From Mesorhizobium sp. (GTDB lineage: Bacteria; Pseudomonadota; Alphaproteobacteria; Rhizobiales; Rhizobiaceae), in contig JAPUFC010000065.1 of NCBI GenBank assembly GCA_027492275.1, forward strand, positions 124,001-188,000: a stretch of 64,000 bases of DNA, written 5' to 3'. How positions within the stretch are numbered: the stretch's first letter is position 1; each line of letters starts with the position of its first letter. Shown here piece after piece: positions 1-26,126 of the stretch. The position numbers were made by a program, and so were the translations under genes. The notes below the pieces were generated by a model. The model ran no database searches. It was not told where the DNA came from and saw only the letters and a program-made list of their open reading frames with translations.

Positions 1-2
1 CA

Positions 3-506: not shown

Positions 507-1070
507 TCAATCCTTCTCTCCGCCGACATTACGGAGTTCGGTAATCGCCTTGGCGATGTGGTCGGCGGCGAGCCGGGTATCAAGTGCAGTCCACGTGACG
601 AGGTTCTGCGGGATTTCGGACAGAGTATTCACCGATTTCACCTGCACCACGTCGACCCGCCTGTCCGGTTCCGGCCAGAAGATCAACAAGTCAGGACTCG
701 GAGTATCCGACGCGGGCTCGGAGGAAGAAGCGCCGGTGGTTTCATCGAACGGACTCTGAGGTTGAGCGGCGACCGAAACCTGAGGCAGGAATTCGGGGGA
801 AATCCGCTCCTTAAGGTGATCCATCACAGGCTCGACTGCAGCGGCAGAGGCTTTCTGCGCCTGTTTCAATGGAAGCCCTGCGTTACCCAGCTTCTTCAAT
901 ATGTAAATGCGAACCACTTCGTCGAGGTCGACGCGAGTCCATCCGGCATCGTCTCTTCTAGGAAGGATATTTCGGTACCGCCACTCTCGCTGAAGGCCGG
1001 CCGAAACCCCGGTGACCGCTGCTATTTCAGCAGGAGTGAATTCCAACGAAGGAACACCATAACGCGGCAT
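507..1070 (-). CDS. MerR-like helix-turn-helix regulator
   Basis: Protein of 187 residues starting at an ATG (MPRYGVPSLEF); a TTG further upstream is possible but the ATG is preceded by a GGGA stretch. The N-terminal 70 residues hold FTPAEIAAVTGVS, a tryptophan-arginine pair, then VDLDEVVRIYILKKL, the pattern of a MerR-type winged helix (helix-turn-helix, wing, then a helix). The middle is a proline/serine-rich linker and the C-terminus has no domain I recognise. It is divergent from the primase-helicase gene at 1,294, so it may control the element's replication gene. Target and ligand are unknown. Confidence 0.55.
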   Translation of the reverse strand: MPRYGVPSLEFTPAEIAAVTGVSAGLQREWRYRNILPRRDDAGWTRVDLDEVVRIYILKKLGNAGLPLKQAQKASAAAVEPVMDHLKERISPEFLPQVSVAAQPQSPFDETTGASSSEPASDTPSPDLLIFWPEPDRRVDVVQVKSVNTLSEIPQNLVTWTALDTRLAADHIAKAITELRNVGGEKD

Positions 1071-1293
1071 TGTAAATCCCAAACCGTTACATATCTAACG
1101 GCACAGCAGCGCTTCGTATACATTCAGGTTACCTGGACATCACTGAGCGCACCGAAGAAGCCGGTCCGTATCATGAATTCGCAAGCACACAAGTCTAACC
1201 CCATTCAATCCGTTGGCATTTCGTCCCATGGGAGCCGGCTGGTACAGTTCTCTGCCATGCAGAGCCACTGAGAAAGTGGACGAACGGCTTCAT

Positions 1294-4227
1294 ATGGACC
1301 GTTCTTCCGAGGGAGAAGAACCTGCGCTGTCGGCCGCATGCAGCCTAGCGACTACTCGGAAGCTTCGGCTCTCGATCAATGCTGGCATCGTCAACAAGAC
1401 TGTTCCAGATAACAGCCTTTACGTCGACGGCTGGGAGAACGTCGAACTAACGATCGCCGAGTTTGCGGAGGCGGTTGCCGGACAGGGCCATGCCTACTGC
1501 GCGCAGCTCAAAGGAAGAAGGGAAAGCAGGAACTTCCTGGCCTCCGACATCGTGTCCGTGGACGTCGACCACGGCATGACGATCGAGGAGGCCTTGGCAA
1601 ACCCACTGGTGAGGGACAGCGCCGCCCTCCTCTACCCCACGTCCAGCCACACCGACGCCGACCCCAAGTTCCGCATCGTCTTCGTCACCCCCAGAACCAT
1701 TACCGATCCCAATGAGATGGAGGCCATCTCCCGGAGTTTAGCACTGCGTCTCATGGGCGATTCGGCAGTTACCGATGCTGCCCACCTGTTTTTCGGTCAT
1801 CGTGGCGTGGAGAGCATCATGATCGGCCGGCAGCTCGGGGAGGTTCTTGTGGCAGAGTTGATCGCGCAGGGAAAGATCGCGAAGGGCAAGCGGCAGCTCG
1901 ACAGCCGCAATTCGTCCTTGATCGTCGCCGCGAACGTCGCAGTCCGCCTTGCGGACGATCAAGTCCTCCCCTTGCAGGATGTTGTCGGAAGACCGTCGGC
2001 TTATTGCCCCTACCATGCCGACCGTAGGCCCAGCGCTTTTGTGGTGACGAGCCGTGCCGGCGTTAAGGGCATCCACTGCTCGACCTGTGGCCAGACCTAC
2101 TGGCCGTCCGGCGACATCTCGTTCAGCTTCGACCATTTCGAGCAGGCGGTGCGAGAAGCCCACAGGGTTGGAGGCGGAACCGGCGATCTGGGCGGCGTGA
2201 AAATCGACATCGTTTCCGGGAAGGCGACACCGGAACGGCTGGATCCCGGATTGACCTTCATCAAAAGCCCGAAAGGGACGGGCAAGACCGAGGGCGTGAA
2301 ACGTTTGCCTCACCATGAGGACAGCATCCTCGTGATCGGCCATCGTCGCCTGCTCAACAGGCAGATTTCGGGCCGGCTGGAGCTGAACAGCTATCGCGAT
2401 CGCAACCTCCCGCCATGGCGTGGTGCGCGGGATGATCGGCTCGACCGTTTCGCGGTAAGCGTCGACAGCCTGGAACTCGTGCCCGCCAACAAAGAGTACG
2501 ACGTGATCGTGCTGGACGAGGTCGAACAGGTTCTTCAGCACTTCCGTTCTGAGACGCTGAAGGCGCGAGAGCGCGTCTTTCTGCTCTTTTCCCATCTCAT
2601 TCGAAACGCTCGTTCCGTCATCGCCCTTGACGCTGACCTGGGGTGGGCCACCTTCCACACCCTGTCGAGGATGCGGGCGGGCTTGGAGGGCACGGCTGCC
2701 ACGCGGCGGATATGGCTTAACGAGGACCTGCCAGGTTCGGGCAAGACCGTTCAAATTTATGATTCCGAGCAGGCTCTTGTCGGTGAGCTTCAGGAAGCCC
2801 TGAAGACTGGCAAGAAGTGCCTGATGGCATCGACCTCTAAAGGTAGGGTCGAAAGGCTCTCGGCGGCCATGACCGAGATGCTGCCCGAGATCCGACAACT
2901 CGCGGTAACCTCGGATACGTCTGGCAGCGAAGCGGTAGAGCAGTTCATCGCCGATCCTGCGGGCGAGATGATGAAGTACGACGTCGTGCTAGCCTCCCCA
3001 TCGTTGGGGACCGGCATCGACATCACGTTTCCCGACAATGAGCAGGTGGTAGATGTGGTGTTCGGCTTCTGCGATCCGGAGCCACTCACCCATTTCGACT
3101 TCGATCAGCAACTCGGCCGTGTCAGGCACCCCAAAGAGATCAAAGTCTGGGTCTCGCCGCGTCTTTGCAGCTACGAGACGAACCAAGACGTCGTTCGCGA
3201 CGACATCCTTCGCAAAGGGCTTTACAAAGAGGTGTTGATCGGCTTCGACCCCGAAGGCAAACGGGTCTTCAAGAACGATGATCCCCTCATCGAGATGGCT
3301 GCCATCATCGACAGCCAGCGCCGCGCCTCGTTGAATAGCATAAAGGCGCACTTCGTCCGGCACAAGCAGGCGCAAGGATACGAGATCGTCCACGTCGGCA
3401 AGGACAGCGGCCTAGCTGCCACAGGTTCCGACATCTTCGCTATCGGAAGGGAACTAGATGATGCCGCCTATGCGTCGCGGGTTCTTGCCGGGGGTGTGTT
3501 GACGGAATCCGAGTTCGAGCGGCTGAAACGGCTGCGGGAGGACGGAAAAGACATCGCAGATGACCAACGAGCCTCTCTGGCTAGAACCGGCATCGAGCTG
3601 TTTTATCGGCATCAGGTCGACATGGACCTCATCAAGCTGGACGATCGTGGAAGGCACCGCAAACGAGCGCGTCTTTATGAGGACGTTGCCGGGGAGCTTA
3701 AGCGGCGCGCTGAAGGATTGACGCACAGCGGTTCTCCGGCTTCCGAATTGCGCAACCGCTTTCTGCCCAATGTTTTCTGGGCCGCGCCGTTGTTGGTCGA
3801 CCTGTTGGAGCGCACGCCGCTGATTCGGGATAACGCGTTCGATCCCGATGCCGAATTCAAGTCTGACGACCTCGCGGCGTTTGCCGGGTTTTGCCTGGAA
3901 AAGCGCGACATCATAGCCAGCCTTCTCCAAGAAGACGTCCGGCAAGACATAAGGAAGAAGCCGGTCCAGCAGCTCAATCGCCTTCTCAGGAAGATAGGCC
4001 TTTGCCTGACGAAGGCGCGCAGGGTGAAGCAGAACGGCACGAAGGTAATCTACTACCGTCTTGACGTCGCAACGCTCGGCGCGATGTCGACGCTGACCCG
4101 GCGCCGCCGAGAGAACGGCGGATGGGCGGCGCTGAATGAGATCTACGGCAGAACCTCGACGTGGCCCTATGACGAAAACGACGACGATCTGGCTTGGCTG
4201 GCGGAGGTGGTCGAGCCTCAGCCGTAG
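1294..4227 (+). CDS. Primase-helicase replication protein (AEP primase, zinc finger, UL9-like helicase)
   Basis: A large protein of about 977 residues. In order: an archaeo-eukaryotic primase-like region with DIVSVDVDH (metal-binding D-x-D, residues about 90-92) and PTSSH (about 116-119); a CHC2-type zinc finger, CPYH then CSTC (about 238-265); and a superfamily 2 helicase with Walker A SPKGTGKT (about 325-332), DEVE box (about 408-411) and motif VI QQLGRVR (about 604). The same layout is known in plasmid and phage replication initiators of the CyRepA1/origin-binding type. It probably replicates this mobile element. The start is uncertain: the open frame extends to a TTG at 1,213, but homology-like sequence begins only after the ATG at 1,294. 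An inverted repeat follows the stop codon. Confidence 0.75.
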   Translation: MDRSSEGEEPALSAACSLATTRKLRLSINAGIVNKTVPDNSLYVDGWENVELTIAEFAEAVAGQGHAYCAQLKGRRESRNFLASDIVSVDVDHGMTIEEALANPLVRDSAALLYPTSSHTDADPKFRIVFVTPRTITDPNEMEAISRSLALRLMGDSAVTDAAHLFFGHRGVESIMIGRQLGEVLVAELIAQGKIAKGKRQLDSRNSSLIVAANVAVRLADDQVLPLQDVVGRPSAYCPYHADRRPSAFVVTSRAGVKGIHCSTCGQTYWPSGDISFSFDHFEQAVREAHRVGGGTGDLGGVKIDIVSGKATPERLDPGLTFIKSPKGTGKTEGVKRLPHHEDSILVIGHRRLLNRQISGRLELNSYRDRNLPPWRGARDDRLDRFAVSVDSLELVPANKEYDVIVLDEVEQVLQHFRSETLKARERVFLLFSHLIRNARSVIALDADLGWATFHTLSRMRAGLEGTAATRRIWLNEDLPGSGKTVQIYDSEQALVGELQEALKTGKKCLMASTSKGRVERLSAAMTEMLPEIRQLAVTSDTSGSEAVEQFIADPAGEMMKYDVVLASPSLGTGIDITFPDNEQVVDVVFGFCDPEPLTHFDFDQQLGRVRHPKEIKVWVSPRLCSYETNQDVVRDDILRKGLYKEVLIGFDPEGKRVFKNDDPLIEMAAIIDSQRRASLNSIKAHFVRHKQAQGYEIVHVGKDSGLAATGSDIFAIGRELDDAAYASRVLAGGVLTESEFERLKRLREDGKDIADDQRASLARTGIELFYRHQVDMDLIKLDDRGRHRKRARLYEDVAGELKRRAEGLTHSGSPASELRNRFLPNVFWAAPLLVDLLERTPLIRDNAFDPDAEFKSDDLAAFAGFCLEKRDIIASLLQEDVRQDIRKKPVQQLNRLLRKIGLCLTKARRVKQNGTKVIYYRLDVATLGAMSTLTRRRRENGGWAALNEIYGRTSTWPYDENDDDLAWLAEVVEPQP

Positions 4228-4394: not shown

Positions 4395-4850
4395 CTATCT
4401 GCCAAGCACCTTTTCGGTCTGCCGATCAGCATCTTCCGGCGTCAGTACGCCGGCTTCCCTCAGCTTCTTGATGCTCGCCAGCAGTTCCGCCTTGTCCGAC
4501 GATGGCTCCGGGATGCGGACAGGCACATCCAGCGTCGGCTCCGCGCGCTGCTTGGACGCGTATGCCCGTTGGGCGGCGAACACCGCCTCGCCTGCGACGT
4601 CGCCCGCCGTCCGCTCGCCCCGTCCGGTAGCGTTGCCGAGGACCGGGTCCAGAAAGCTGCGGTCGCGCGGGAACACCGCCCAGGCGAAGGCGACGACCCA
4701 GAAGATACCGGTGAACCCGCAGATGTTCAGGACGAGGATCACCCAACGATAGCGGTGGCGGCGCAGGAACCCGACGATGGCAGGCAGGAAGTAGAGTCCC
4801 GCCGCCAGGATCAGGAACATCATGATCACGCCGTCTTCGTCGTATGGCAC
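4395..4850 (-). CDS. Superinfection-immunity-like membrane protein with C-terminal SHOCT-like segment
   Basis: Protein of 151 residues from a GTG start (reading PYDEDGVIMMF). Two hydrophobic segments, residues about 9-27 and 36-58, carry the pattern of the T4 Imm / superinfection immunity family: a short hydrophobic helix with LPAIVGFLRRHR, then a second with LNICGFTGIFWVVAFAWA. Members are small inner-membrane proteins; phage versions block DNA injection by related phages. The last 30 residues (ELLASIKKLREAGVLTPED) look like a SHOCT oligomerisation motif. It is divergent from the XRE regulator at 5,027. The longer open frame upstream (to 5,009) is probably not translated. Confidence 0.65.
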   Translation of the reverse strand: MPYDEDGVIMMFLILAAGLYFLPAIVGFLRRHRYRWVILVLNICGFTGIFWVVAFAWAVFPRDRSFLDPVLGNATGRGERTAGDVAGEAVFAAQRAYASKQRAEPTLDVPVRIPEPSSDKAELLASIKKLREAGVLTPEDADRQTEKVLGR

Positions 4851-5026
4851 GCTCAAGCCCGAACCTCCCGGCAACCTTCCCCGTCGCATCGGTCGGTTGG
4901 AAACGGACCATAGAAACTTCGATCGTGCAGATAGTGTCTGTCCGGCATGCCACCCCTCCAACAACCTTGTTGCTAACACATTATAGTTGATAAACCAAAT
5001 AGTGAACACGGTCGATTAGTGGGTGC

Positions 5027-5295: not shown

Positions 5296-5877
5296 TTAGC
5301 TGATCGCCGGTGTCTCTTCGGACGCGGTGTTGCCTGCCGCCACGATCCGCACCACCGAGGCTTTGCCCAAGCCTAGCTGGGCAGCAATCTTCGCCATGCT
5401 CATGCCGGCTGCGCGCAGCGCACGGACCTCCTCCGCCCGAAGTCGCGCGGTCGGCTTTCGCCCCTTGTACTTCCCGTCCGCCTTCGCCTTGGCGATCCCC
5501 TCGCGCTGCCGCTCCAGCATCATCTCCCGCTCGAACTCGGCCACCCCGCCGAGGATGTTCAGCATCAGCTTGCCGGTCGGCGTGCTGGTGTCGATGCCGA
5601 GGTTCAGGATGCGGATGCCGACGTTCTTCGCCTGTAACGTCTCGATGATCGTCCACATGTCGCGGACAGATCGGGCGAGGCGGTCGAGCTTGGTGACGAC
5701 GAATACGTCTCCCTCGCGCGAGAACTCCAGCGCGCCCTCCAGCGCCGCGCGACGGCCGAGGGCCGAAACCTGCTCTTTATAGATTCGCTCGCAGCCGAGC
5801 CTCTCCAGCTCGGCCACCTGGGCTTCCAGCCCGGCCTCCTGATCCAGTGTCGACGTGCGCGCGTAGCCGATCAGCAT
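5296..5877 (-). CDS. Serine recombinase of the resolvase/invertase family
   Basis: Full-length small serine recombinase of 193 residues. The N-terminal catalytic domain starts MLIGYARTST with the nucleophile Ser9, and has the arginine-rich TKLDRLARS and the GGVAEFEREM..ERQREGI helix typical of the family (long E helix at the dimer interface). The C-terminal 50 residues (KGRKPTARLRAEEV, then GMSMAKIAAQLGLGKASVVRI) form a Hin/Tn3-type DNA-binding HTH. It could resolve cointegrates of a transposon or invert DNA. The 165 bases between its start and the next small gene may contain its recombination site, but I could not define one. Confidence 0.9.
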   Translation of the reverse strand: MLIGYARTSTLDQEAGLEAQVAELERLGCERIYKEQVSALGRRAALEGALEFSREGDVFVVTKLDRLARSVRDMWTIIETLQAKNVGIRILNLGIDTSTPTGKLMLNILGGVAEFEREMMLERQREGIAKAKADGKYKGRKPTARLRAEEVRALRAAGMSMAKIAAQLGLGKASVVRIVAAGNTASEETPAIS

Positions 5878-6229: not shown

Positions 6230-6658
6230 TCACCCTGACAGTTTATCTTCTCCTTGTCGCGCCATAGCCCAGAACCTCACCAAGCCGCGATAGGCAGACT
6301 GCTGCTCATCAAGCCGAACCTCGGAGTAGACCGGCTTCCAAGACAGAATCGATGCGGTCGCGATTTCCGGCGATTCGGCCAGTGCCACCTTCGCTTCCTC
6401 AATGAGTGCCGCGACAGCAGCCTCTCCCGAACGCTTCCAGATGTGCACTGTAGCCAAGAGACTGACTGTAGTCGGGTCGTTCTCGTCTGCGGTGACACCA
6501 ACCCACGCGCAGGGAATCTCGGCCGGATCGGCATCGAGAATTCGACCCTGCACACCTGCCGAAAAGGCTTCGGAGCTGCGCAGCTGCGTCAGTATCGCTG
6601 CCTGCAATTCACTAACCGGATTTGCCACGGCATCACTCCGTGATGGCATGTCGGCCAT
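6230..6658 (-). CDS. DUF3168-like phage tail completion protein (prophage remnant)
   Basis: A 142-residue protein. The order VSELQAAILTQLRSSEAF, then a small beta strand with IPCAWVGVT, then TVHIWKRSGEAAVAALIEEA and a late strand YRGLVRFWAMA matches the DUF3168 family, tail terminator or completion proteins encoded between head-tail connector and major tail genes of tailed phages. No other structural phage gene lies nearby, so this is either a stray gene or the remains of a prophage. It is divergent from the tyrosine integrase at 6,679. Confidence 0.6.
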   Translation of the reverse strand: MADMPSRSDAVANPVSELQAAILTQLRSSEAFSAGVQGRILDADPAEIPCAWVGVTADENDPTTVSLLATVHIWKRSGEAAVAALIEEAKVALAESPEIATASILSWKPVYSEVRLDEQQSAYRGLVRFWAMARQGEDKLSG

Positions 6659-6678: not shown

Positions 6679-7983
6679 ATGGCTCGACACAACGCATGTG
6701 GATTTGATCTGTCAGACATTGAACGCCGTCAATGCCTGAAACCGAGGTTTGCCCCCTACTGGCAGGTTACGGAATATGGCCGAGCCGTTGGCTACCAGAA
6801 ATATGCAACAGGCCGCAGCTACTGGGTCGCCCGCATGCGCATGCGCGACGAGAGCTATCGCCAGCATCGGCTCGGCGTGACCGAAGACAATCAGGATGTC
6901 AGCGATGGCCTCCCCTTCGTGGCCGCTTGCAGAGCGGCTGAGGACTGGTTTTCCTCAACGCCGTTCCGACAGCATGCCAGCGATGCCAGACCGATCGGCT
7001 CCTACGAGCATCTTCTGGCCTCGCCCATTGGCGACATCTGCACGATCGGCCATGCGCTTGCGGAACTGGTCGAGTGGAAGCGGCTGGTCGCAGCACGGTC
7101 GCACTTCCTGACCGTGGTCATTCTGATCAACTTCCACATCCTGCCCCGCCTCTTCAACCTCCCCGCCGCCGACATGAATACGGAGCGCCTGAGGCTCTTC
7201 GTGAAAGATATCCTCGAAACACCGCCGAAGCTCGGCAACCAGCCGGTCAAGGCGCGGCGTCCGATCGATCAGATGACCGAAGACCAGCTTCGTCGGCGCA
7301 AGAAGACGGTCAACACGCTGATAGGACTCTTGCGAATGGCCTTAGTGATGGCATGGGAGAATGGGCGGATCGACTCCGATCGGCCATGGCGCTGCCTGCG
7401 CCGCCTCAATAATGTCGACCGGCCTCGCGTCCTTCACCTCAGTCGTCCAGAGTGTTTTCGCCTCTTGGATAACTGCAAGCCAGACCTCAGGAATCTGGTT
7501 CTTGGCGCGCTCTATACCGGATGCCGCGTAACCGAGCTGTTGCGGATGCAGGCAACGCATGTCGGTCGCGATGGAGCCGGAGTCTATATCACGCCTGTCA
7601 AATCCTATCGCCCGCGTGTGGTCCTGCTCCCAGACGAGGGGCTAGCCTTCTTTCGCACCATGGCTGAAGGTAAGAAGCCGCACGAACATCTGTTCCTCCG
7701 TGCCAGCGGCAGGAGCTGGTACACAAACTATCGCCACGGCTTCAAATGCGCTGTCCGTAAGGCTGAACTACCGGAAGAATTCTGCTTCCACGGCTTGCGC
7801 CACACCTATGCCAGCCAGCTTATCCAGAACGGCACACCGCTCATTGTCGTGGCCGAGCAGCTAGGGCATCGCAACATCGATACGGTCAGCAGGACCTATG
7901 GGCATTTGGCACCAGACATTCGGTTAGCCGAGGTGCGAAGGCGCTTTGCTTCGTTAAGGTCTGCTCATAGCAGCCTCGCTTAA
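6679..7983 (+). CDS. Tyrosine recombinase / integrase
   Basis: A 434-residue phage-type integrase with an intact catalytic set: Arg in ALYTGCRVTELL (about residue 283), HGLRHTYAS (His371, Arg374), LGHRN and the nucleophile Tyr407 in SRTYGH. The N-terminal half has the core-binding helical region (KTVNTLIGLLRMALVMAWENG). A good ribosome site (GGAAAGG) precedes the ATG. It could have mobilised all or part of the island. Because comM is interrupted inside its coding sequence rather than at a tRNA, it is not clear whether this enzyme produced the present junction. Confidence 0.9.
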   Translation: MARHNACGFDLSDIERRQCLKPRFAPYWQVTEYGRAVGYQKYATGRSYWVARMRMRDESYRQHRLGVTEDNQDVSDGLPFVAACRAAEDWFSSTPFRQHASDARPIGSYEHLLASPIGDICTIGHALAELVEWKRLVAARSHFLTVVILINFHILPRLFNLPAADMNTERLRLFVKDILETPPKLGNQPVKARRPIDQMTEDQLRRRKKTVNTLIGLLRMALVMAWENGRIDSDRPWRCLRRLNNVDRPRVLHLSRPECFRLLDNCKPDLRNLVLGALYTGCRVTELLRMQATHVGRDGAGVYITPVKSYRPRVVLLPDEGLAFFRTMAEGKKPHEHLFLRASGRSWYTNYRHGFKCAVRKAELPEEFCFHGLRHTYASQLIQNGTPLIVVAEQLGHRNIDTVSRTYGHLAPDIRLAEVRRRFASLRSAHSSLA

Positions 7984-8459: not shown

Positions 8460-10733
8460 TCACTTCCTAGTCGCAAGCCTTGCCGACTTCGCCGGGGCAG
8501 CGACCTCGAGGAGGCTTCGGCGATTAAGCGCCATTTCGAGGACGTCCGACTTGCCCCCTCGGGTCAGGCACGCGGCGATCCTCAAGGTTTTTTCGGCGCG
8601 GCTCGAACCGAGGTAGATATTTGAGATGAAGCGGCGACGCACGCCGTCGCTGGCATCGATCGGCGCCTCCGTCGCATCGACGTGGATCAGGAAGACCGTC
8701 TCGAATTGCAGGCCGGCGACGTATTCCGGCATGCTGAAGACGAACCGTTTGCCTGCGTGGCGAAGATCGGAGGAGGGTTCGCGGCTGACAATCGGCAAGT
8801 GACCCTGCGAATACCGTGCGGCGGCTATCGGTAGGTATTTATCGAATTGCTCGTCACTCGCGCAGAGTACAGCGACACGCCGGCCACCCCCCTCGTGAGC
8901 ACGCGCCACTTTTTGAGCTTCCGCGAAAACGTTGGCGAAGAGGCTCGCTTCGTCTATGAACACCGTCAATTCCGGCGTGTCGCCGTCCGCCAGTTCCGCC
9001 TTCCCCGAATAAGCATCCCACTCCCCAGGAACGTCAATGGCGGGAAACGTTGCGTCGAGGTCGGCCAGGAACTCGGCGATCTGGGGGGTGTACCTGAAAA
9101 CCTTTTCGAGCTTCACGAGTTCTGAGTTCTGCAGTCCCGTCGAGGCGGCGAACAGGCTCGTGTCCCCTTCGCCGTATTGCACGAACGTGTCGCGCGGGCT
9201 CTGCTTGAGGTCGTAGGCCATGAAGACGGGCGGACGCCTCGGTTTTCCGTCCTCGTCGGCGTTGCGCCTGATAAGCTTGTGCAGCGTCTGGCGCTCAATT
9301 GAGGTGAACAAATGCAGCTCGTCTATGAACAGCGCATCGTATCCTTCGCGCTGCCTGATGCGATCCCACCGATTCGAATTGAGGAACGAGTTGAAGTCGC
9401 CGATCATTTGGTCGACGCTCAGCGTATTCATTTCGCCGAGCTGGCGACGGTATCGCCGATGAACCTCGAGGACGAAGCGTCTGTCTAGCTCGGTCGACAG
9501 GTTCATCAGCCATGCTGGTCGCGGGAAGCTTCCCTTGGCGTAGCGCTCGCCCCGCTCTTCGCCATGGCGAACCCCTTCCGCGTCGAGGACGCTGGCGAAC
9601 TCGTTCATAATCTCTGCAACAAGTCTAGTGTCCCGGCCGGCGGTGGCGGCAGCCCAGCGCTCCTTCAACTCGGGGCTCAGACCCGCGAACTGCGCGCCGA
9701 CGATTCTGGAGCTCCCGAGCTCCTTGAGCATGGTGGCGATCAGCTCTGCCTGAAGTCGACGGCCTTCGCGCCCGTCGAGTGAAAGCGGCTCGAGCTGATC
9801 CAACTCGAAGTTAAGGTTCTTGTGCGCAAGGTCGTACAGCGTCCGGACCTCCAGCTTCACATTCGGGCTCGCCCCGAACAACAGGCCCTTGGGGTCGAGG
9901 CTTTCACCAATCGCGTTGACAAGGTCAACAGAGGCAAAGCTGTGTGTGAGAAATCCGATCTTGACCGAAATGGCGGGTGTTTCGGCGGCGGCTAGTGCGT
10001 CGCGTAGGAACTTGACCACAAGGGATAGTGTCTTCCCGGTTCCGGCGGCACCCCTCAATCTCACTGGTCCGTCGTGCGGCTTGTCAACGAAATCCCGCTG
10101 TTCCTTAGTGAGTTTGGAGCGGTACCACTGTTCCAGCGTAGCGCCTTGCACGAATCCTTGGTGAAGGCGTTGGCTGAGGGTGATCCCGGCGCGCGAAGCG
10201 GAAGAAGGCTCCTCGAATTGTGTGAGGACCGCGTCGGCCACGTTCGATCTCGCGGCGTCGTAGACCTCCAAATGCCGCTCAAGACGGTCGAACGATCGAG
10301 TGTCCTCGAGCTGGGAGAACACGTAGAGATCGTTGCGATCCCGAGGACGCATGTCGAAGTGTACCCGCCACCGCCATTCGCGGTTCGAGGCTTGTATCGA
10401 AAAAAGGCTGCCCTCCTGATGCTTGCGCCATCCGGTAGGAATGCTCACGCTGTCCGTGTAGATCGACCGGCCAACCGTGATGACCCTTTCCAAGACGGTG
10501 GAGCGAGTTGCAGCTTCCGCCAGCACGCCATCCTCGCCCGCGACGTTCACCACGATCACGGGTGTCTCGTCGGTCTCCAGGTCGGCTTCGACGATATAGA
10601 CCATCTGGTCGATGACGACGCGCTTCAGACCGCAGTTTTGGGCTGGCAGCCCAAAGTGGGCGAACCACTCAGGCCCGATCGAGAACTGAGAAAGTTTGAA
10701 GAGCGCGCGGGGCGTGAGAACTAGGGCCTTCAT
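8460..10733 (-). CDS. UvrD/REP-like superfamily 1 helicase, probable defence protein
   Basis: A 757-residue protein. The N-terminal 210 residues are a domain I do not recognise. Then come SF1 helicase motifs: LTKEQRDFV (Q-motif-like), Walker A RGAAGTGKT, Walker B FIDELHLF, a motif III/IV region with MAYDLKQSP and KVFRYTPQIAEFL, and late motifs GLQFETVFLIHVD and YLGSSRAEKTLRI, the last a variant of the usual 'alTRA' box. It overlaps its upstream neighbour by an ATGA junction (10,730-10,733), so the two are translationally coupled. Helicases of this type with a small co-encoded partner recur in antiphage systems; that role here is inferred from the context next to CBASS. Confidence 0.75.
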   Translation of the reverse strand: MKALVLTPRALFKLSQFSIGPEWFAHFGLPAQNCGLKRVVIDQMVYIVEADLETDETPVIVVNVAGEDGVLAEAATRSTVLERVITVGRSIYTDSVSIPTGWRKHQEGSLFSIQASNREWRWRVHFDMRPRDRNDLYVFSQLEDTRSFDRLERHLEVYDAARSNVADAVLTQFEEPSSASRAGITLSQRLHQGFVQGATLEQWYRSKLTKEQRDFVDKPHDGPVRLRGAAGTGKTLSLVVKFLRDALAAAETPAISVKIGFLTHSFASVDLVNAIGESLDPKGLLFGASPNVKLEVRTLYDLAHKNLNFELDQLEPLSLDGREGRRLQAELIATMLKELGSSRIVGAQFAGLSPELKERWAAATAGRDTRLVAEIMNEFASVLDAEGVRHGEERGERYAKGSFPRPAWLMNLSTELDRRFVLEVHRRYRRQLGEMNTLSVDQMIGDFNSFLNSNRWDRIRQREGYDALFIDELHLFTSIERQTLHKLIRRNADEDGKPRRPPVFMAYDLKQSPRDTFVQYGEGDTSLFAASTGLQNSELVKLEKVFRYTPQIAEFLADLDATFPAIDVPGEWDAYSGKAELADGDTPELTVFIDEASLFANVFAEAQKVARAHEGGGRRVAVLCASDEQFDKYLPIAAARYSQGHLPIVSREPSSDLRHAGKRFVFSMPEYVAGLQFETVFLIHVDATEAPIDASDGVRRRFISNIYLGSSRAEKTLRIAACLTRGGKSDVLEMALNRRSLLEVAAPAKSARLATRK

Positions 10734-11575
10734 TCCGAATCCTTCTCGACCTCGGCCACGATGTCGTCAATCGCGAGGCTGGCCAAGGCGGTGACTTCGT
10801 CAGGCAGTCCGATGCGGGAGAACTGCTGCGCGAAGAGCTGCGCGACCTTGAAGCGGTAAATCTCCGTAAGCCGGCCGATCCTCACCGCGGTGGTCTCGGC
10901 TGCGCCACTCCTCGCCAGCTGCTCCGAAACAGACGGGAAGCAATTTCCCTCGGGGATCGTGTAAATGCGTCGCATCCGGATGACGAATCCGATGCCCGGA
11001 TGCTCGACGAGGTCGCTTATCTGAAAGTGACCATCGCCCATGGCTTTTCTCGCCGCCGCAAGTTGCCTACGCGCGTAGGCCGACGCGTCTTGCTCCGTCC
11101 GGCAGAGGGACAAGAACCGGGAGAAGGGGGCGACCCTGTTGTCGAGCGCTACCGCCAGCTTTCGGACCTCTTGGTAGATGGAGGTAGCCTGGCCCTTCTT
11201 CAGCCTGGTAGAAGCGGTCAGTGCTTCGCTCACCGCCGCAGGCCCGTCGGTGACGATCCAAGAGTGCAGGTTCTCGGCAGCGGCACCGTCGTCACCGATG
11301 ATGTCGATGACCTTGTTCGTCGCCGAAGCTAGCACTTCCGCGATGTAGCCAGGGGCCCAGAATCTGGCGACGTACTCCTTGAAGGGATACATCGGCAGAT
11401 AGGCAAGAACCCCGTCGAGTTTCCCGTTGACTAGGTCGCAATCGGCGTTGATGATTACACCTAGTACCGGCCCTCCTTCGGTGCTGGTGTGATCAATGCG
11501 AATGATGTCGCCTTGAGCTCTTGGTTCGGTCGGCAGAACGCGCTCCGTTTCCCGTTTTGCTGTTGCGTCCACCAC
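10730..11575 (-). CDS. Unrecognised protein coupled to the SF1 helicase
   Basis: A 281-residue protein starting at GTG, preceded by a purine-rich AAGGGGCGG site. I do not recognise the family. Its N-terminal part reads RAQGDIIRI and later GVIINADCDLVNGKL: a beta strand ending in a D-C-D motif, which I have seen as a conserved signature in uncharacterised bacterial proteins but cannot name. The rest is mainly helical and lacks TM segments or a signal peptide. It precedes the helicase gene in the same operon with a 4-base overlap, so the two products probably act together. Confidence 0.6.
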   Translation of the reverse strand: MVDATAKRETERVLPTEPRAQGDIIRIDHTSTEGGPVLGVIINADCDLVNGKLDGVLAYLPMYPFKEYVARFWAPGYIAEVLASATNKVIDIIGDDGAAAENLHSWIVTDGPAAVSEALTASTRLKKGQATSIYQEVRKLAVALDNRVAPFSRFLSLCRTEQDASAYARRQLAAARKAMGDGHFQISDLVEHPGIGFVIRMRRIYTIPEGNCFPSVSEQLARSGAAETTAVRIGRLTEIYRFKVAQLFAQQFSRIGLPDEVTALASLAIDDIVAEVEKDSE

Positions 11576-11697: not shown

Positions 11698-12339
11698 TTA
11701 GGCCGATTTTCTGTTCGTAGCGAAAAGACGCGACGCTTCGTCGAAGTTGTCAGCTAGCGCGGAGACTCGCGACCCATAAGTGACGGTCCCTTTGGTGTGA
11801 CGGTCTGTCCAGTAGTGGCCGTCCATTGCTGCGACGGGATTGCCGACTAGCCGCACCTTAAACGAGCCATAGTGGATTTCGCTTTCTTTCCCACGCAGAT
11901 GGACCTTCGGATCGCTCTGATAGACGCCGGCAATCTCAATCGTGTTATCATCACGCTGTAGGATGTTGCTGGCGATGAGAAAAGAATCCGAGTCCTTTGT
12001 CATTAGCCTGATACTGAGCTTCGAGTAGGTTTGCCGGATTGATGCGAAGCCCTGGATTGGCGCGACTCTCTTGCCCGTTTCGGGTATTTCATAGGTGGAG
12101 TGAAGCTCAACGCACCACGTGCCGTTCAGGTCGGGAATCTTGCTACAGAGTCGAAGCGGCCACCACTTCCACCCGATTCTATCGAATGCCGTTAGTGTGG
12201 CCGATACCACTGCAAGCGTAATTCCGTATGGTTTGATGTGATCCCAGCTAAGGGGAATGCCGGATAGGTAAAGCGTGGCCCCCCACGCGGCGACGGCGAG
12301 GAGTAATATGACCGGCAAGGAAAATCGTTCGAGTGTCAT
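11698..12339 (-). CDS. cap15: Cap15-like two-TM beta-barrel effector (S-2TM-beta family)
   Basis: A 213-residue protein from the ATG giving MTLERFSLPVILL. Two membrane helices (residues about 6-25 and 38-56) are followed by KIPDLNGTW (about 67-75) and a beta-strand-rich domain. That layout and the P-D-L-N-G-T-W motif are the hallmarks of the SMODS-associated 2TM-beta family, which includes CBASS effector Cap15. In that family the beta barrel binds a cyclic dinucleotide and the TM part oligomerises to disrupt the inner membrane. It is head-to-head with the DisA_N-like gene; their 5' ends overlap by 32 bases. A TTG at 12,396 is an alternative start. It is not in the same operon as the CD-NTase, so its activating or inhibiting ligand is uncertain. 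Confidence 0.75.
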   Translation of the reverse strand: MTLERFSLPVILLLAVAAWGATLYLSGIPLSWDHIKPYGITLAVVSATLTAFDRIGWKWWPLRLCSKIPDLNGTWCVELHSTYEIPETGKRVAPIQGFASIRQTYSKLSIRLMTKDSDSFLIASNILQRDDNTIEIAGVYQSDPKVHLRGKESEIHYGSFKVRLVGNPVAAMDGHYWTDRHTKGTVTYGSRVSALADNFDEASRLFATNRKSA

Positions 12340-12802
12340 GGATGACAGGCGGGTTCTTGACCGTAGAACTGCTGAGACATTGCGGACTTTATACAACGGA
12401 ATAGGTCAGACGCATCCGCTGATCCTCTGCTTTGTAAGCGGAGTATCGATCCCGAGATATTGTGCGCCGATGGCGCGCGCTCCGCTGCCTCCACTTGGCG
12501 ATGCGTTCGACGAAAATTTCCTGCGCGTTGTCGAGGCCGCACAACGCCAAAACGCTTCGATTCATGACGGCGCCATCGTGGTCTCTCGCCAAAACAATGG
12601 AGACTTCTATCGTGTCAGTGGATGGTCGTTTCGTCTCATTCCGCCAATGATTTCCGAGTTCGCCGAAGCAAATCGGGGGTCGGCCTACAACAGTGCCATA
12701 TGCATGTCGTTGAGCGAGAACGTCGATGCCGTTGCGCTGCTGAGCAAGCATCACTCAGATGTCTTCGCGGGCGGACGCCGGTATGCGCCGAGCGAGCTGT
12801 GA
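12308..12802 (+). CDS. DisA_N (diadenylate cyclase)-like protein with degenerate RHR motif
   Basis: A 164-residue protein; the ATG at 12,308 is chosen because AGGAG lies 4 bases before it. A later ATG (12,338) shares a CATG palindrome with the Cap15-like start codon. The fold order matches the DAC domain: a hydrophobic strand LILCFVSG, a helix FLRVVEAAQRQ, the motif IHDGAIVV (Asp87-Gly88-Ala89), a loop, then GSAYNSAICMSL and NVDAVALLS. Known diadenylate cyclases have GTRHRAA where this has GSAYNSA, so the phosphate-binding Arg-His-Arg is lost. It may be an inactive nucleotide sensor or an altered cyclase. No N-terminal membrane or C-terminal DNA-binding domain is present. Recognised by eye only. 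Confidence 0.55.
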   Translation: MTGKENRSSVMDDRRVLDRRTAETLRTLYNGIGQTHPLILCFVSGVSIPRYCAPMARAPLPPLGDAFDENFLRVVEAAQRQNASIHDGAIVVSRQNNGDFYRVSGWSFRLIPPMISEFAEANRGSAYNSAICMSLSENVDAVALLSKHHSDVFAGGRRYAPSEL

Positions 12803-12863: not shown

Positions 12864-13334
12864 CTAGTCGACGTGTTCGTACAGCTGTTCCAGCCCGTCT
12901 GCGCTTGCAATACCCCACCAAAAACCACTCCATCCTCCAATCGCAAAAATCATCGGAGCGTGCGCTTTCCTCATAAGAGTTTTCCAAGTGCGCCGGTCTA
13001 GCCACGATGGGGTCGGCAATGCTTGGGGATGGGTGTGCCATTCTCCGATATACGTATCGGTGCCTGCACTTTGTTGCCACGTTTTCATAGCGATTGACTG
13101 ATGTAGGGGGTCAATGCGGTCAAATAACGCAAACGAACGCCGGTCCCGTGGATAAGGCGTTGTGTAGCCCGAAACTTCGATATGATCCCCTCTGTACGAG
13201 CCGAGCAATATCCCGCCGGTCTCCCTTGAAGTTGGGCCTCGTTCGACTCGGCTTTTAATCAGCTCGACAACCTCATCGTGCACGAGGACAAACCGCCCAT
13301 CGCCCAGTGTCAGCACTAGTGGGGGCTTTTGCAT
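12864..13334 (-). CDS. cap3: Cap3, JAB/JAMM isopeptidase of type II CBASS
   Basis: A 156-residue protein from the ATG of MQKPPLVLTL; this start overlaps the end of cap2 by 19 bases, as expected in one operon. It is a JAB-domain metalloprotease: Glu38 in RETGGILLG, and the zinc motif H-x-H-x7-S-x2-D in EWHTHPQALPTPSWLD (His100, His102, Ser110, Asp113). In type II CBASS this enzyme removes the conjugate that Cap2 places on the C-terminus of the CD-NTase, and so tunes signalling. All catalytic residues are present. A longer frame to 13,442 is open but unlikely to be used. Confidence 0.9.
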   Translation of the reverse strand: MQKPPLVLTLGDGRFVLVHDEVVELIKSRVERGPTSRETGGILLGSYRGDHIEVSGYTTPYPRDRRSFALFDRIDPLHQSIAMKTWQQSAGTDTYIGEWHTHPQALPTPSWLDRRTWKTLMRKAHAPMIFAIGGWSGFWWGIASADGLEQLYEHVD

Positions 13335-14986
13335 GCCGGACAAGTCGAAAGGGCTAGAGGATTTGCATCGGCGATTTGGAATGCCTGCTTGGTGTCGAGG
13401 GTTTGCGACCTGAACCGCGGCGATGCGCTCCCACTTACCCAATCTAACGCAAGCTCACAAACTTGAACTGCTGCAGCAACTGAACGAGACACGGGGAATG
13501 GGATGAACTCTGAATCGCCGCAAGCTGCGATCGACCTGATTTCCACGTTAACATCAGGCCTTATGGCCCGAAATCTCGGTTGCCCCGCCAACTCTGGTTT
13601 CAGGCATTTGAAGCAAGCTTTTTTCGCATCCGAATCGACTAAGATGCTTTGGGCAATAGCCCCGTTTCCAGCCAGCCACCCGAAGATATGTGCCGGCGCG
13701 TCTGGACGACGGTCAATGGCCCTCTGATTGAGAGCGATCGAAAGTGCTTCTTCACCGGTCACATCGATAACGAGGTGAAACCGATCTGTCGCGATCGTGA
13801 GTCCGTCCGAATTTTCGGCTTCCACGCTGATGCCCGGAAGCATCGTCTTGATGAACGTGGTGGTGGCTTCCGCCTTGTTGCGATGAAGATAGGGTATCCC
13901 CAACAGATGCCGGCCCAAGTTTGCCGTACGCAGATCGTCGGTGTCGGCCAGCACCAGCCGTCCACCCGCAGTACCCGCTCCAGACTGTGCAAGTTGGTGA
14001 GCGAGAAATCCGCCGATCGTTCCGCAGCCGATAAGGAGGATCGCTTTTCCGCCAAGGTTGGGGCGTGAGCCGATGTTGCGACTGAAGACGTACTCAGGGT
14101 CGGCAGCATCGGCCCTGATGCGCTCCACTTGAATACTTGCTGCTGTCTTATCCATGACCTTGGGCAAGCTGCTCCGCCGCTGCTTCAGAAACTCAGGCTT
14201 TTTTAGATGGGCCGGTACCTCCAGGCGCAGAGCGAAAAGTCCGTTTGTTGCACGGATCGCCAATATCGCGCCAGCTTGGCTGCTTTTGACGAGCGCTTCA
14301 TCAAGCTTTGCTTCCAGGCCCGGTGCGATCCAACGTAGCCAAAGCTTCATTTGGAGGAGGTTTTCCGGTGGCCAACTGCTATTCGGATCAAGGGTCAGCG
14401 GCTTATTGATGGTGACGATAAGAGCGTCTTCAGCGGAAGCCGTTGAGGCAGGATCACGGTCCGTTGCCCATGATGATTTGGCGGTGAGCACTGGTGTTGG
14501 CACGCCGTCCGCCCGCAATACGGGATAGGCCACAGTTCCCAGTCCGCTGAAGTCACGAGGCAGGTCATAGAGCATCCAGCTTTTGCCCCAGTAGGATGCG
14601 AACTCGGCAGCGAAATCGCTGTCAAGACGACCACCGAGAGCGTCGGCGACGACTTTCTCAGCCTTGACGAGGCATCTCAAGATGGTGCCTGCGGGATTGT
14701 ACCTATCGAGTATGGCTGATCCGGCACCGTAGTAGCAAATAATGCCATCCGGGCCGAGAATGTGCGGCAGCTTTCGATTGTCGAAAACTGATGCATCGAC
14801 GATGCGGACCACCGGGTACCGCACGAAGTCGTAGTCTGGAACAATGATCTCGACAGGTACGGGCTTGGGGTTTATCGGCAGATATCCGCGATAGGTGTCA
14901 AAGCGAGATCCAAGCAGTCGTTCGAACTTTCGTTGAACGAGTGCGTCATGCACGAACAGGCGACTCACGTGGTGCTGGTCAACCAC
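13316..14986 (-). CDS. cap2: Cap2, E2-E1 ubiquitin-transfer-like fusion of type II CBASS
   Basis: A 556-residue protein from a GTG start that overlaps the CD-NTase gene by 8 bases. The N-terminal part is an E2-like domain with a probable catalytic cysteine in GIICYYG (Cys84). The C-terminal half is a ThiF/E1 adenylation domain: Rossmann motif LIGCGTIGG (about residue 315-323), ADTDDLRTANLGRH, and a candidate E1 cysteine in AACGD (about 487). CFKC (about 455-460) and the terminal CPAC form a probable zinc site. Known Cap2 proteins activate the CD-NTase C-terminal glycine and link it to targets, which primes cyclic nucleotide synthesis. Confidence 0.9.
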   Translation of the reverse strand: MVDQHHVSRLFVHDALVQRKFERLLGSRFDTYRGYLPINPKPVPVEIIVPDYDFVRYPVVRIVDASVFDNRKLPHILGPDGIICYYGAGSAILDRYNPAGTILRCLVKAEKVVADALGGRLDSDFAAEFASYWGKSWMLYDLPRDFSGLGTVAYPVLRADGVPTPVLTAKSSWATDRDPASTASAEDALIVTINKPLTLDPNSSWPPENLLQMKLWLRWIAPGLEAKLDEALVKSSQAGAILAIRATNGLFALRLEVPAHLKKPEFLKQRRSSLPKVMDKTAASIQVERIRADAADPEYVFSRNIGSRPNLGGKAILLIGCGTIGGFLAHQLAQSGAGTAGGRLVLADTDDLRTANLGRHLLGIPYLHRNKAEATTTFIKTMLPGISVEAENSDGLTIATDRFHLVIDVTGEEALSIALNQRAIDRRPDAPAHIFGWLAGNGAIAQSILVDSDAKKACFKCLKPELAGQPRFRAIRPDVNVEIRSIAACGDSEFIPFPVSRSVAAAVQVCELALDWVSGSASPRFRSQTLDTKQAFQIADANPLALSTCPACKSPH

Positions 14987-16103
14987 TTGTGGAACGACCG
15001 ACTTCCGGAGCCGGGTTTACCTTTTTAGGTTGGCTGGTTACGGTAACGGCAGTGGGTGTCAAGATTGCCACGAGATCCGTTCGATATGGGATCCGGGTAC
15101 CGAACATGCCGCGCATTTCCTCAACGGCGTTTTGTTGGTCGTCGCAGTATCTGACGACATCGCGCAGCCGCGAAGCCAAGCCTTCAACGAGGTCTGCAAC
15201 TTTCTGCCTGTGCTCCTTTGGTATCCGGTTGAGATCCTCATTTCCGCAGGCCGGGATGAAAACCGGACCTTTGAGCATCTGCGGCAGGTATTCGACCACT
15301 CTCTGCAAGCGTTCATCTTCTCGATCCGGCAGAAACGGCCCGCGGATGGCCTCATACGCATTCCAGATACAGGCCATCAGGAGGATGGACGAAACTTTAT
15401 ATTCATCGAGTTCGTGATGGTCCCGCCAACCCTTCATATATCGGCAATCTCGACGAAGCTTCTCGCCATACAGATCCACCGCGTCAACGAACCATTTGTG
15501 GATTTGCCGCGGATCAGAAATCTTCCAATCCTCGTCCCGGTGAGCCAGGAGAACCGAGTCTGAAGGCAGTTCGCTCCAATCCCCAAATTTCGCGTCGAGT
15601 GACGCCGTTGCAGATTTCGCCATGCGGTCTTGCAAGGTCACGAATTCCCGGTCCGGGATGGCGTAAAGGGGAATGTCGACGTGTGCATCGCGTCCGATAA
15701 CCACTCGACAACATGTGGGTTTGAACTCCTGACGCCAGCCTTCTCTCTCCGCTAACACTTTAAGCGCGGCATCAACGAATTCGAAAAACAACTTGGCTGC
15801 GCTGGACGGCTTCTCACCCTTCACAAACGAAAGAGGAAGATAACAGCCGTCATCAAGATCCATTTGCTGCGTCGGCGGCCATGCAGGTTCATTGAGCGTA
15901 CCGTAGGCCGAACTTCCCTGCGTGAAGAACCGAGGGCGTATCGCCTCACCAAACACTTCCGTCCCAGCGCTCGCGAATGCAGCCCGAAGGTGCTCCCGGA
16001 TTTTGGTACGCGCGTCTTTAAGAGGGGTATCCTCTGGGGTGAGATTGACCAAGAAGGTCTCGGGGTCGACGGTAGTATGCAGTAGCTTCGCAACATTCGC
16101 CAT
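14979..16103 (-). CDS. CBASS CD-NTase, DncV-like (clade A) cyclic dinucleotide synthase
   Basis: A 374-residue nucleotidyltransferase. The active-site signature is complete: TQGSSAYGTL (Gly63-Ser64), MDLDDGCYLP (Asp82 and Asp84) and DAHVDIPLY (Asp143). The QGS-Y-G-T-L plus DLDDG-Y-L-P arrangement is that of Vibrio cholerae DncV, which makes 3',3'-cGAMP; the exact product here is inferred. The protein ends in a flexible tail with a terminal glycine, as expected of a CD-NTase that is conjugated by Cap2. It is the first gene of the leftward cdn-cap2-cap3 operon and is divergent from capV, with a 110-base shared promoter region. Confidence 0.92.
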   Translation of the reverse strand: MANVAKLLHTTVDPETFLVNLTPEDTPLKDARTKIREHLRAAFASAGTEVFGEAIRPRFFTQGSSAYGTLNEPAWPPTQQMDLDDGCYLPLSFVKGEKPSSAAKLFFEFVDAALKVLAEREGWRQEFKPTCCRVVIGRDAHVDIPLYAIPDREFVTLQDRMAKSATASLDAKFGDWSELPSDSVLLAHRDEDWKISDPRQIHKWFVDAVDLYGEKLRRDCRYMKGWRDHHELDEYKVSSILLMACIWNAYEAIRGPFLPDREDERLQRVVEYLPQMLKGPVFIPACGNEDLNRIPKEHRQKVADLVEGLASRLRDVVRYCDDQQNAVEEMRGMFGTRIPYRTDLVAILTPTAVTVTSQPKKVNPAPEVGRSTSG

Positions 16104-16213
16104 GGACGCTCAACTCCAAGGATTTAGAGACTCAGCCGACTCACTCCCAGAAGTCGACTGTAGCCGAATCGCGATAAAGAACATACAATGAACACGAGTC
16201 GAAGGTGCCACTC

Positions 16214-17212
16214 ATGACATTTCAGATCCTGAGTCTTAGTGGAGGTGGCTTTCTTGGCCTCTACACCGCGTCGGTTTTGAGCAAGCTCGAAGAGCAGACC
16301 GGCAAACCGATTATCGACTCATTCGATCTGATTGCAGGCACTTCTGTTGGAGGCATCATCGCGTTAGGCCTAAGCGTAGGTCGAAGTGCAAGTGAGATCA
16401 AAGAAGCCTTCATAGCAGACGGCCATCACGTGTTCAGCGGCGATCGGCCGCCGCAGAATGTGATCGCTTCGGCTTGGAAACTTGTAACGGGTGTTCCGAA
16501 GTCACGTTACAATCCGGATCGGCTTCGCGTGATTATCGAGCGGATCGTCGGCGAGAATACCCTCATGCAGGATTTGCGCCGCCCGACCGTCATTCCCGCC
16601 GTCAATCTAACGAAAGGTGGTCCGAAAATCTTCAAGACCGGACACCACCCAAAACTCGTCCTCGACTGGAAATTGAAGGTCGCTGATGTCGCCCTCGCGA
16701 CATCAGCTGCACCAACATATTTCCCACTCCACCAGATCGGAGACGATCTTTACGCCGATGGTGGTCTGTTCGCTAATTCACCGGATTTGATCGCGGTGCA
16801 CGAGGCCGAGAGATTCCTTGGCATTAAACAAGAAGATATCTCTGTATTAAGCATAGGCACTACAACCACTGCGTTTGCTTTCTCGTCACAGGCGGGAAAA
16901 GCGCTAGGATCATTCGGATGGCTTAAACGGGAGCGCTTGCCGAAGGTGATGATTGGGTCGCAGCAAGCGTTAGCTAACGACATGATGAAGCATATGCTCT
17001 CGGATCGATATGTGCGGATTGATCGAGCGCAATCGTCGGATCAACAGGCGGAACTCGCTTTGGACTGCGCCAGTGAGATTGCGAAGCGCGACTTACAATC
17101 TGCTGCGGCTAACTCTGTTGCTGAAGCTTCATCTAGCGGTAGGCTTCTGAAAATGCTTAATCATAAAGCGATGCCATCGATGTTTTTGAACGCTTCCATC
17201 GGGGATCGTTGA
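16214..17212 (+). CDS. capV: CapV, patatin-like phospholipase effector of CBASS
   Basis: A 332-residue patatin phospholipase from the ATG of MTFQILSLSGGG, preceded by GAAGGTG; a GTG three codons upstream is possible. Oxyanion motif GGG (residues 10-12), nucleophile elbow GTSVGG (Ser44) and the DGG dyad partner in YADGGLFANSP are all present. In known systems cGAMP binding switches on CapV, which then degrades membrane phospholipids and kills the infected cell. Unlike standard CBASS operons, where the effector gene comes first on the same strand, this gene is transcribed away from the CD-NTase. Its base composition is visibly more AT-rich than that of the core genes to the right. Confidence 0.92.
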   Translation: MTFQILSLSGGGFLGLYTASVLSKLEEQTGKPIIDSFDLIAGTSVGGIIALGLSVGRSASEIKEAFIADGHHVFSGDRPPQNVIASAWKLVTGVPKSRYNPDRLRVIIERIVGENTLMQDLRRPTVIPAVNLTKGGPKIFKTGHHPKLVLDWKLKVADVALATSAAPTYFPLHQIGDDLYADGGLFANSPDLIAVHEAERFLGIKQEDISVLSIGTTTTAFAFSSQAGKALGSFGWLKRERLPKVMIGSQQALANDMMKHMLSDRYVRIDRAQSSDQQAELALDCASEIAKRDLQSAAANSVAEASSSGRLLKMLNHKAMPSMFLNASIGDR

Positions 17213-17409
17213 CTGCGTTCGAAAGTCGATAACCACCACAAGCAAAGAGCCTAGGCCGCCTCCGAACGGCAGGCAATCAAATGTCGGCGCCAATACCGGA
17301 CTGCCAGGTGTCGGCTCCACACGCGACATCTGGAGCCAATTGTTTGAGAATGGCTTTTGGCGCTCAACAGTGGCTTGGCAGATGCGAGAGCGCCGATTAA
17401 TTGACTACA
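17213..17409. mobile_element. Right end of the genomic island, junction with comM
   Basis: These 197 non-coding bases separate capV from the interrupted comM. Read from the comM side, the non-comM sequence begins TGTAGTCAATTAATCGGCGC at 17,409, so the element may end in a 5'-TGT, as Tn7-like transposons do. Further TGT-plus-GC segments occur inside (for example TGTCGCGTGTGGAGCC and, inverted, GGCGCCGACA), which might be transposase-binding repeats, but they are not clear copies of one motif. The left end of the island and the other part of comM are outside the window. Confidence 0.5.
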
Positions 17410-18055
17410 ATATCAGAAGGTTGTGGCCGCCGGCTGCCGCCACCTCCAGCGCGCGGCGGGCGCTTTCCTGGCCCCTGATGTCGGCCAGGTCCGGCATCTC
17501 CCCGGACGCCTCGCGAATGCTGGGCTGCGGCCGGGACAGGACCTGCGTGCCGCGAAAATGGTTGGCGACGGCGATCAGGCTTCGCGGCGCGAGAATATCG
17601 ATGTCGCCGCCGGCCCACGCCGCCTCCGGGCCGCAGGCGGCGGGGCAGATCAGCCCCCTGCCGTCCGCGTTGGCGCCGATGGCCGCCGGCAGGACGCCGT
17701 TCACCGCCGTTATGGTGCCGTCAAGGGACAGTTCGCCCAGCACCACGTAGCCGGCCAGCGCGTCGCCGGGTATCGCGCCCAACGCGGCCATGAGGCCGAG
17801 CGCGATCGGCAGATCGTAGTGGCTGCCTTCCTTGGGCAGGTCGGCGGGCGCCAGGTTGATGGTCACCTTCCTGGCCGGCATGGACAGGCCGGAGGCATGG
17901 AGCGCGGCCTGCACCCGCTCGCGGCTTTCGGCGACCGCCTTGTCGGGCAGGCCGACGATGGACATGCCGACCTTGCCCGGCGCGACCATCACCTGCACGT
18001 CGACGGGCACCGCCTCGATGCCCTGGAAGGCGACAGTGCGTACACGCGAAACCAT
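17405..18055 (-). pseudogene. comM: comM/yifB, N-terminal fragment cut by the island
   Basis: The frame starts MVSRVRTVAFQGIEA and follows the YifB/ComM family (Mg-chelatase-like AAA+ ATPase): VGLPDKAVAESRERVQAAL, KEGSHYDLPIALG, GELSLDGTI, then DIRGQESARRALEVAAAGGH. It ends NLLIL and a TAG supplied by the junction, exactly where intact members continue with the Walker A motif. About 216 of the usual 500 or so residues remain, so the product has no ATPase domain. The family is a hexameric helicase that helps integrate DNA in natural transformation. comM is a known insertion site for Tn7-related islands such as AbaR in Acinetobacter. Confidence 0.9.
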
Positions 18056-26122: not shown

Positions 26123-26126
26123 CCCG

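Follow-up and report, generated by a model that had tools for sequence, protein, structure and literature searches.

What interrupts comM in this Mesorhizobium genome, what brought it there, and why should it have settled in this particular gene? The window (the whole stretch of 64,000 nucleotides that was analysed) corresponds to C65:124001-188000 of a 189,918-bp contig. Within it, ORF 17405-18115(-) encodes ComM from its start and terminates with GGHNLLIL-stop, so that the gene is interrupted just 5′ of the Walker A codons, as a preliminary description of this DNA had stated. This description had also proposed that an island separates the N-terminal part of the gene from the ATPase part, and had advised searching left of the window for the rest of comM. 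The C-half, recognised by PF01078 and PF13335 (Mg_chelatase, Mg_chelatase_C), was indeed found there at C65:121733-122639, on the same contig and 1.4-2.3 kb left of the window. Both halves are thus located, about 18.8 kb apart, and the C-terminal part of comM, whose absence would have spoken against an insertion, is present at the other end of the island. The six bases ATCAGA (TCTGAT on the comM-coding strand) occur at both junctions, at window 17412..17417 on the right and, outside the window, at contig positions 122590-122595 (+ strand; L009 3590-3595) on the left, which gives an island length of 18,822 bp. The G+C content is 0.65-0.67 just right of the junction versus 0.54-0.63 in the island part of the window. 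The suggested comparison with relatives that have an intact comM revealed an uninterrupted site, reading GGHN-LLMVGPPGSGK or close variants across the point of insertion. The features of the locus are as follows (window coordinates unless marked L009).

L009 3647-5461 (3′ part at window 1..461), + strand: large serine recombinase (LSR) gene, 604 aa, beginning 1,354 bases left of the window
507..1082, - strand: MerR-like regulator, weak (PF13411, E 0.0068, below cut-off)
1213..4227, + strand: CyRepA1-family plasmid replication protein, 1004 aa (NF042913, 309.5 bits, cut-off 200)
4395..5009, - strand: superinfection-immunity-domain protein (PF14373)
5296..5877, - strand: small serine resolvase, 193 aa (PF00239)
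6230..6658, - strand: phage tail-completion gp17-like protein, possible prophage remnant (PF11367)
6679..7983, + strand: tyrosine integrase, internal to the island (PF00589)
8460..10733, - strand: UvrD-like helicase (PF00580)
10730..11575, - strand: 281-aa protein, no family match in Pfam, PADLOC and NCBIfam scans
11698..12396, - strand: CBASS effector Cap15 (PF18153, PADLOC)
12864..13442, - strand: CBASS Cap3, JAB isopeptidase (PADLOC; NF050170, 104.8 bits, below cut-off 200)
13316..14986, - strand: CBASS Cap2, E1-E2 (PADLOC)
14979..16103, - strand: CBASS CD-NTase, cGAMP synthase (PADLOC; NF041078 above cut-off)
16205..17212, + strand: CBASS effector CapV, phospholipase (PADLOC; NF041079 above cut-off)
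17405..18055, - strand: comM N-terminal half, about 215 codons, ending GGHNLL just before Walker A
17412..17417, no strand: right att core ATCAGA, also present at the left junction

The position of the LSR gene points to the mover of the island. The gene begins beside the comM C-half, 51 bases away from the left shared core, while the N-half lies at the far end, and its product contains Recombinase and zinc-ribbon domains (Pfam). The catalytic-domain model PF00239 did not match this protein at E 0.01; the catalytic motifs were read from an alignment of 55 comM-seated recombinases, this one included. The arginine and serine of Y-x-R-x-S are kept in 55/55 sequences and the tyrosine in 54/55, and all four named residues of DR-x-SR are kept in 55/55. 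The rebuilt attP is near-palindromic, with 17/22 symmetric pairs, a value that was reached by 0/5000 shuffles. The locus therefore combines the features of an LSR element: a recombinase gene at one end, a short attL/attR core, a near-palindromic attP and an uninterrupted attB in relatives. On the other side, the symmetry of attB is weak (13/22 pairs, reached by 421/5000 shuffles). We conclude that the island is very probably an integrative element that is mobilised by its own LSR and integrates into an attB in comM with CyRepA1 and CBASS genes aboard; the activity of this recombinase is predicted from its sequence. The LSR matched the CcrB profile only weakly (E 2e-10, 40 bits, cut-off 900). 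SCC elements carry the SCC helicase, a replication-type gene. The island resembles SCC (ccrAB) in being an integrated element with a replication-type gene and in this weak profile match, and differs from it by scoring far below the CcrB cut-off, by its target gene, and by encoding CyRepA1 instead of the SCC helicase.

Two other movers have to be weighed. The preliminary description had read the island as Tn7-related and had recommended looking for tnsABC-like genes and a 5-bp target duplication. A transposon of the AbaR/Tn6022 kind that entered comM with target duplication would agree with the six bases shared by both junctions, an overlap that taken alone counts against the LSR reading, and elements of this kind are known to insert into comM (PMC11472951). 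However, none of the 14 island proteins scanned is of Tn7 type (neither tnsABC-like genes nor tniQ), an LSR lies at the end of the element, and attP is near-palindromic. The overlap, six bases here, also varies among related islands, down to 2 bp in L163, so that a fixed 5-bp duplication appears unlikely. We therefore give a Tn7-like origin practically no credence, which corrects a plausible misreading; the AbaR/Tn7-like elements in Acinetobacter comM share the target gene with this island and differ from it in transposition machinery (PMC11472951). The internal tyrosine integrase (6679-7983) is also very unlikely to have moved the island with the LSR as a passenger. An element with a tyrosine-integrase-like gene (by eye) does occupy another place in comM in genome G066. 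Here, however, more than 8 kb separate the tyrosine integrase from the left junction and more than 9 kb from the right, whereas the LSR adjoins a junction, and among 87 LSR loci the integrase has a match only in L112 and L113, which is weak (27-28%). Together with the resolvase and the phage-like gene, this integrase does weigh against a simple LSR element, in that the island may be composite.

For the LSR element we propose the following mechanism. The recombinase would recombine the near-palindromic attP of a circular element with an attB in comM spanning codons GGHNLLMVGPPG. Integration would split comM just before the P-loop and leave the recombinase gene at the C-half junction. Since the island encodes a plasmid-type replication protein, the excised circle may replicate by way of CyRepA1, and the type II CBASS would travel as cargo. 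ComM has a helicase role. The split before Walker A removes the ATPase part, and the host would thereby lose its branch-migration helicase for transformation; this loss would shield the island from removal by homologous recombination. In Gram-negative bacteria, ComM has been taken to be the helicase that drives branch migration during transformation (PMC11612176), and it has been described as important for incorporating imported DNA (PMC4774983). By analogy with other species (PMC4774983, PMC11472951), transformation would be lowered here to the profit of the island. We infer the replication of the circle, the loss of ComM function and the benefit of this loss to the element.

The cargo includes defence genes. 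CD-NTase, Cap2, Cap3 and an effector are clustered and all are supported by PADLOC profiles, which identifies a type II CBASS. This single cluster (11698-17212) contains two unlike effectors, the CapV phospholipase, encoded by a divergent gene, and the Cap15 membrane receptor; a literature search found no paper on this pairing in CBASS by title. The UvrD-like helicase and 281-aa protein genes (8460-11575) overlap, adjoin the CBASS and are possibly a further defence system. The tail-completion-like gene lies beside the tyrosine integrase (6230-7983), perhaps as part of a second element nested or decayed inside the island, and is the single phage structural match among the proteins scanned. We also considered a conjugative element (ICE/IME) and rejected this assignment, because Pfam and/or NCBIfam scans of 14 island proteins yielded no relaxase or conjugation gene.

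CyRepA1 was found in 1/199 family genomes (this one only; E <= 1e-10) and in 2/297 order genomes (this one and G602; E <= 1e-20). The copy in G602 lies within a comM island of about 34 kb and has one in-frame stop; the CBASS proteins described here had no match in the G602 stretch. The sister element nearest to the present island, L011, comes from a MAG of Mesorhizobium. It is also inserted in comM (parts at 1417-2355 and 25875-26537), measures about 23.5 kb and encodes an LSR 56%, a CyRepA1 42% and a resolvase 66% identical to those described here. Its CBASS is a different one, with another cyclase model, CapV and CapP. This makes three genomes in which the CyRepA1 gene is part of a comM island. 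Among plasmids, the nearest relative of CyRepA1 is encoded by one from Bradyrhizobium barranii, with two matching pieces that cover 93% at 38.8% identity. Among viral contigs we found no relative of CyRepA1 and five of the LSR (listing plus one tblastn). Replication activity has been demonstrated for the cyanobacterial CyRepA2 (PMC10079941); the island protein belongs to the CyRepA1 family by NF042913, and may support autonomous replication.

How general is this choice of target? Besides the LSR described here, relatives at E <= 1e-30 occupy at least 43 places in 394 family genomes, with at least 17 further new places in 397 order genomes and at least 7 in 385 class genomes; these counts are lower bounds because three candidates were scored per genome. 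The 67 places were fetched again with flanks of at most 2.5 kb on the upstream and 17.5 kb on the downstream side. This survey located 52/67 in comM: the Walker A site accounts for 47 of them, and a second site, near codon 32, for the other 5. Within the family, at least 31 comM-seated LSR places fall in at least 30/393 other genomes, and LSR targeting of Mg chelatase/ComM genes has been published (PMC10083194), so that comM is a less surprising site in rhizobia than the preliminary description had taken it to be. A separate set of 20 named LSR loci includes 5 at the Walker site and 3 at the second site (8/20 in comM). Among the five Walker-site loci are MAGs labelled Betaproteobacteria, Deltaproteobacteria and Planctomycetota, as well as an Enterovibrio. 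For 15/67 places and 12/20 named loci the fetched stretch showed no comM, which counts against the LSR reading; for one of these rows, L162, the upstream DNA (L187) also gave no comM match. The rows without comM cluster in an 81-row LSR tree (8 changes versus 21.6 in shuffles; labels that predate the reassignment of L110 to the second site and of L124 and L131 to the Walker site), so that the targeting of comM characterises a clade. The three reassignments were made when upstream DNA showed comM behind extra DNA. Short rows (<330 aa: L025, L030, L143, L146, L150, L152, L168) were left out of the trees.

The 21 islands that are complete within the fetched stretch measure 2.8-14.2 kb, and in all 21 the G+C content is below that of the 2-kb flank. 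Larger comM islands are the one described here (18.8 kb), L011 (23.5), G602 (34) and G277 (47 kb). The largest cargo protein matches a PADLOC model in 4/21 complete islands (L134, L156, L163, L173), and in L132 a second protein of the island does so. Searching from the other side, we found a comM N-half match in 148/151 family genomes examined; among the matches listed, 15 full-length N-halves have an open frame no longer than 364 aa, and 10 of these, the present one included, carry such an island. In four others short gaps or frameshifts break comM into two pieces <= about 70 bases apart (G011, G101, G113, G120), and in one the short comM frame is due to a contig end (G088).

Reading both junctions by eye in the Walker-site islands located the crossover. 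Both junctions contain T, the base at position two of codon 250, in 16/16 islands (15 other complete ones and that described here) and CT in 14/16; both junctions were obtained for 15/20 islands, while L140, L164, L167, L169 and L171 gave not both and were not counted. In L138 the junctions have AT in common at the crossover codon in place of CT. The recombinases of L135 and L138 are closely related, and their islands lie in opposite orientation at the same comM site. At the second site, both junctions could be read in seven elements (G234, G262, G277, G1152, G1153, G1154, G934). By eye, the shared bases include the first two of codon 68 in reference numbering, which is protein codon 32; to fit this register, G1153 needs a 2-base and G1154 a 1-base offset in the N-half. 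The crossover register is therefore the same at both sites, codon 68 in IVGLP and codon 250 in MVGPP, and in protein codons the sites lie at about 32 and 214. A first guess at the second site, an AG or GC dinucleotide register, had shown no special likeness to the Walker site. The codon register was settled after reading both junctions, although it had already been used in an earlier comparison.

Close relatives have moved between these sites. A careful tree of 20 LSRs, which uses the corrected label of L110 (second site) and does not contain L124 and L131, places the recombinase described here in a subclade of 14 members, 7 at the Walker site and 7 at the second site. Their distribution needs 4 site changes (bootstrap 5%-95% range 4-4), that is at least four, and a single clade of second-site members is rejected with p-AU 3e-49, the group having been named after a first tree. 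All 14 members are comM-seated, a statement about the 14 tree rows: the short relatives L030 (59% over 160 residues) and L152 (48%), similar enough to belong near this subclade, are unplaced and without comM in the stretch fetched.

Why then does this lineage remain in comM? One answer is that both sites are used only for their likeness to what the recombinase recognises, and that disrupting comM brings no advantage. Outside the Walker site itself, and with 20 bases on each side, comM matches the Walker-site motif best at the second site in 7/11 genes (those intact genes among 23 comM loci that were parseable by pattern); in the other four the second site ranks 2, 2, 4 and 5 of about 3034 positions. 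Because the site ranks high in the crossover register, in which seven elements recombine (by eye, two with the offsets above), likeness exists where the crossover happens. Against this answer, the ranks are weaker, 1 to 44, with 10 bases on each side, and the motif derives from coding sequences and not from the enzyme, which makes the comparison soft. Scoring 1.22 Mb of other DNA with 20 bases on each side predicts that a 4-Mb genome contains a median of about 538 sites scoring at least as well (range 0 to 11909), yet 14/14 subclade members are in comM. With hundreds of equally good sites predicted per genome, likeness alone hardly explains staying in comM, and we consider this answer to have somewhat less than an even chance. 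It is improbable that comM was already non-functional and the insertion neutral. The C-half described here does lie in two frames that meet at L009 ~3395, a frameshift that could be decay or an error of the draft assembly; if it is real, excision would not restore comM here, a further point against the LSR reading. However, 45/46 comM C-parts beside islands are covered in a single frame and 44 contain no stop (L015 has one), only the present one being frameshifted; since a match had to extend to the end of comM to be counted, intact parts are favoured and badly decayed ones could be missed. Since the C-parts are mostly intact, in most genomes the islands may be young or leave again; the present insertion may be older than the others, or its frameshift an assembly error. 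Alternatively, with clearly less than an even chance, selection for breaking the gene may hold the recombinase lineage on comM, so that the target would be the function of the gene, the recombination of imported DNA that could delete the element, and not merely a DNA word.

As for the N-halves, 5/24 contain a stop; in 4 of these the alignment extends upstream of the start codon used, and in 1 beyond the junction.

LSR insertion into comM, annotated as "Mg chelatase", was already known (PMC10083194). Durrant et al. reported Mg chelatase/ATP-dependent protease (ComM/YifB) genes as the target of 12.4% of predicted site-specific LSRs, and an enrichment in DNA competence genes (PMC10083194). The present island resembles their elements in that an LSR integrates into a ComM-family gene; two alternative sites, a CyRepA1 module and CBASS cargo do not appear to be described in the main text of that report (PMC10083194). 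The Wolbachia phage sr1WO likewise encodes an LSR and has a magnesium chelatase gene split on either side of the element (PMC9203015). Unlike this island, in which one tail-completion-like gene is the sole phage structural match among scanned proteins, sr1WO is a prophage. Croucher et al. described mobile DNA in comM of several species, argued to block transformation, and two comFA sites that are used by divergent integrases (PMC4774983). Unlike the present island, their comM elements have another integrase in common, CF65_00446, and the term "serine recombinase" is absent from the text of that paper (PMC4774983). A paper on Sinorhizobium hot spots deals at least partly with tRNA genes (PMC11476347). 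Two alternating comM sites, CyRepA1 in comM islands and LSR islands in rhizobial comM were not described in the literature searched, a set that lay mostly outside subscription papers and wholly outside supplements.

To this background the present analysis adds counts of relatives in comM, a second site in register, and repeated site changes within a subclade. comM emerges as a recurrent landing place for serine-recombinase islands in Alphaproteobacteria, some of which carry anti-phage genes. The repeated switching between two matching sites is a natural experiment on whether competence genes are chosen for their sequence or for their breakage, in the latter case because transformation could no longer delete the element once the competence gene is broken. 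The insertion maps expected under these two readings differ.

Several other arrangements at comM were observed. In L178, L179 and L180, about 4 to 15 kb of extra DNA lies between the recombinase and the comM half; in one of the three it contains a recombinase remnant, and the arrangement suggests that elements have accumulated in tandem at comM. Genome G099 has its comM divided into three pieces, on contigs C12, C24 and C13 (L220, L214, L210), and serine-recombinase genes or fragments occupy the codon-32 site as well as the Walker A site. Finally, the insertion in G066 measures 33.4 kb and interrupts comM at a third position, reference residue 110-117 (L184 105-347, L185 17610-19998); its tyrosine-integrase-like gene adjoins the comM C part, and it represents a separate type of insertion into comM within this family.
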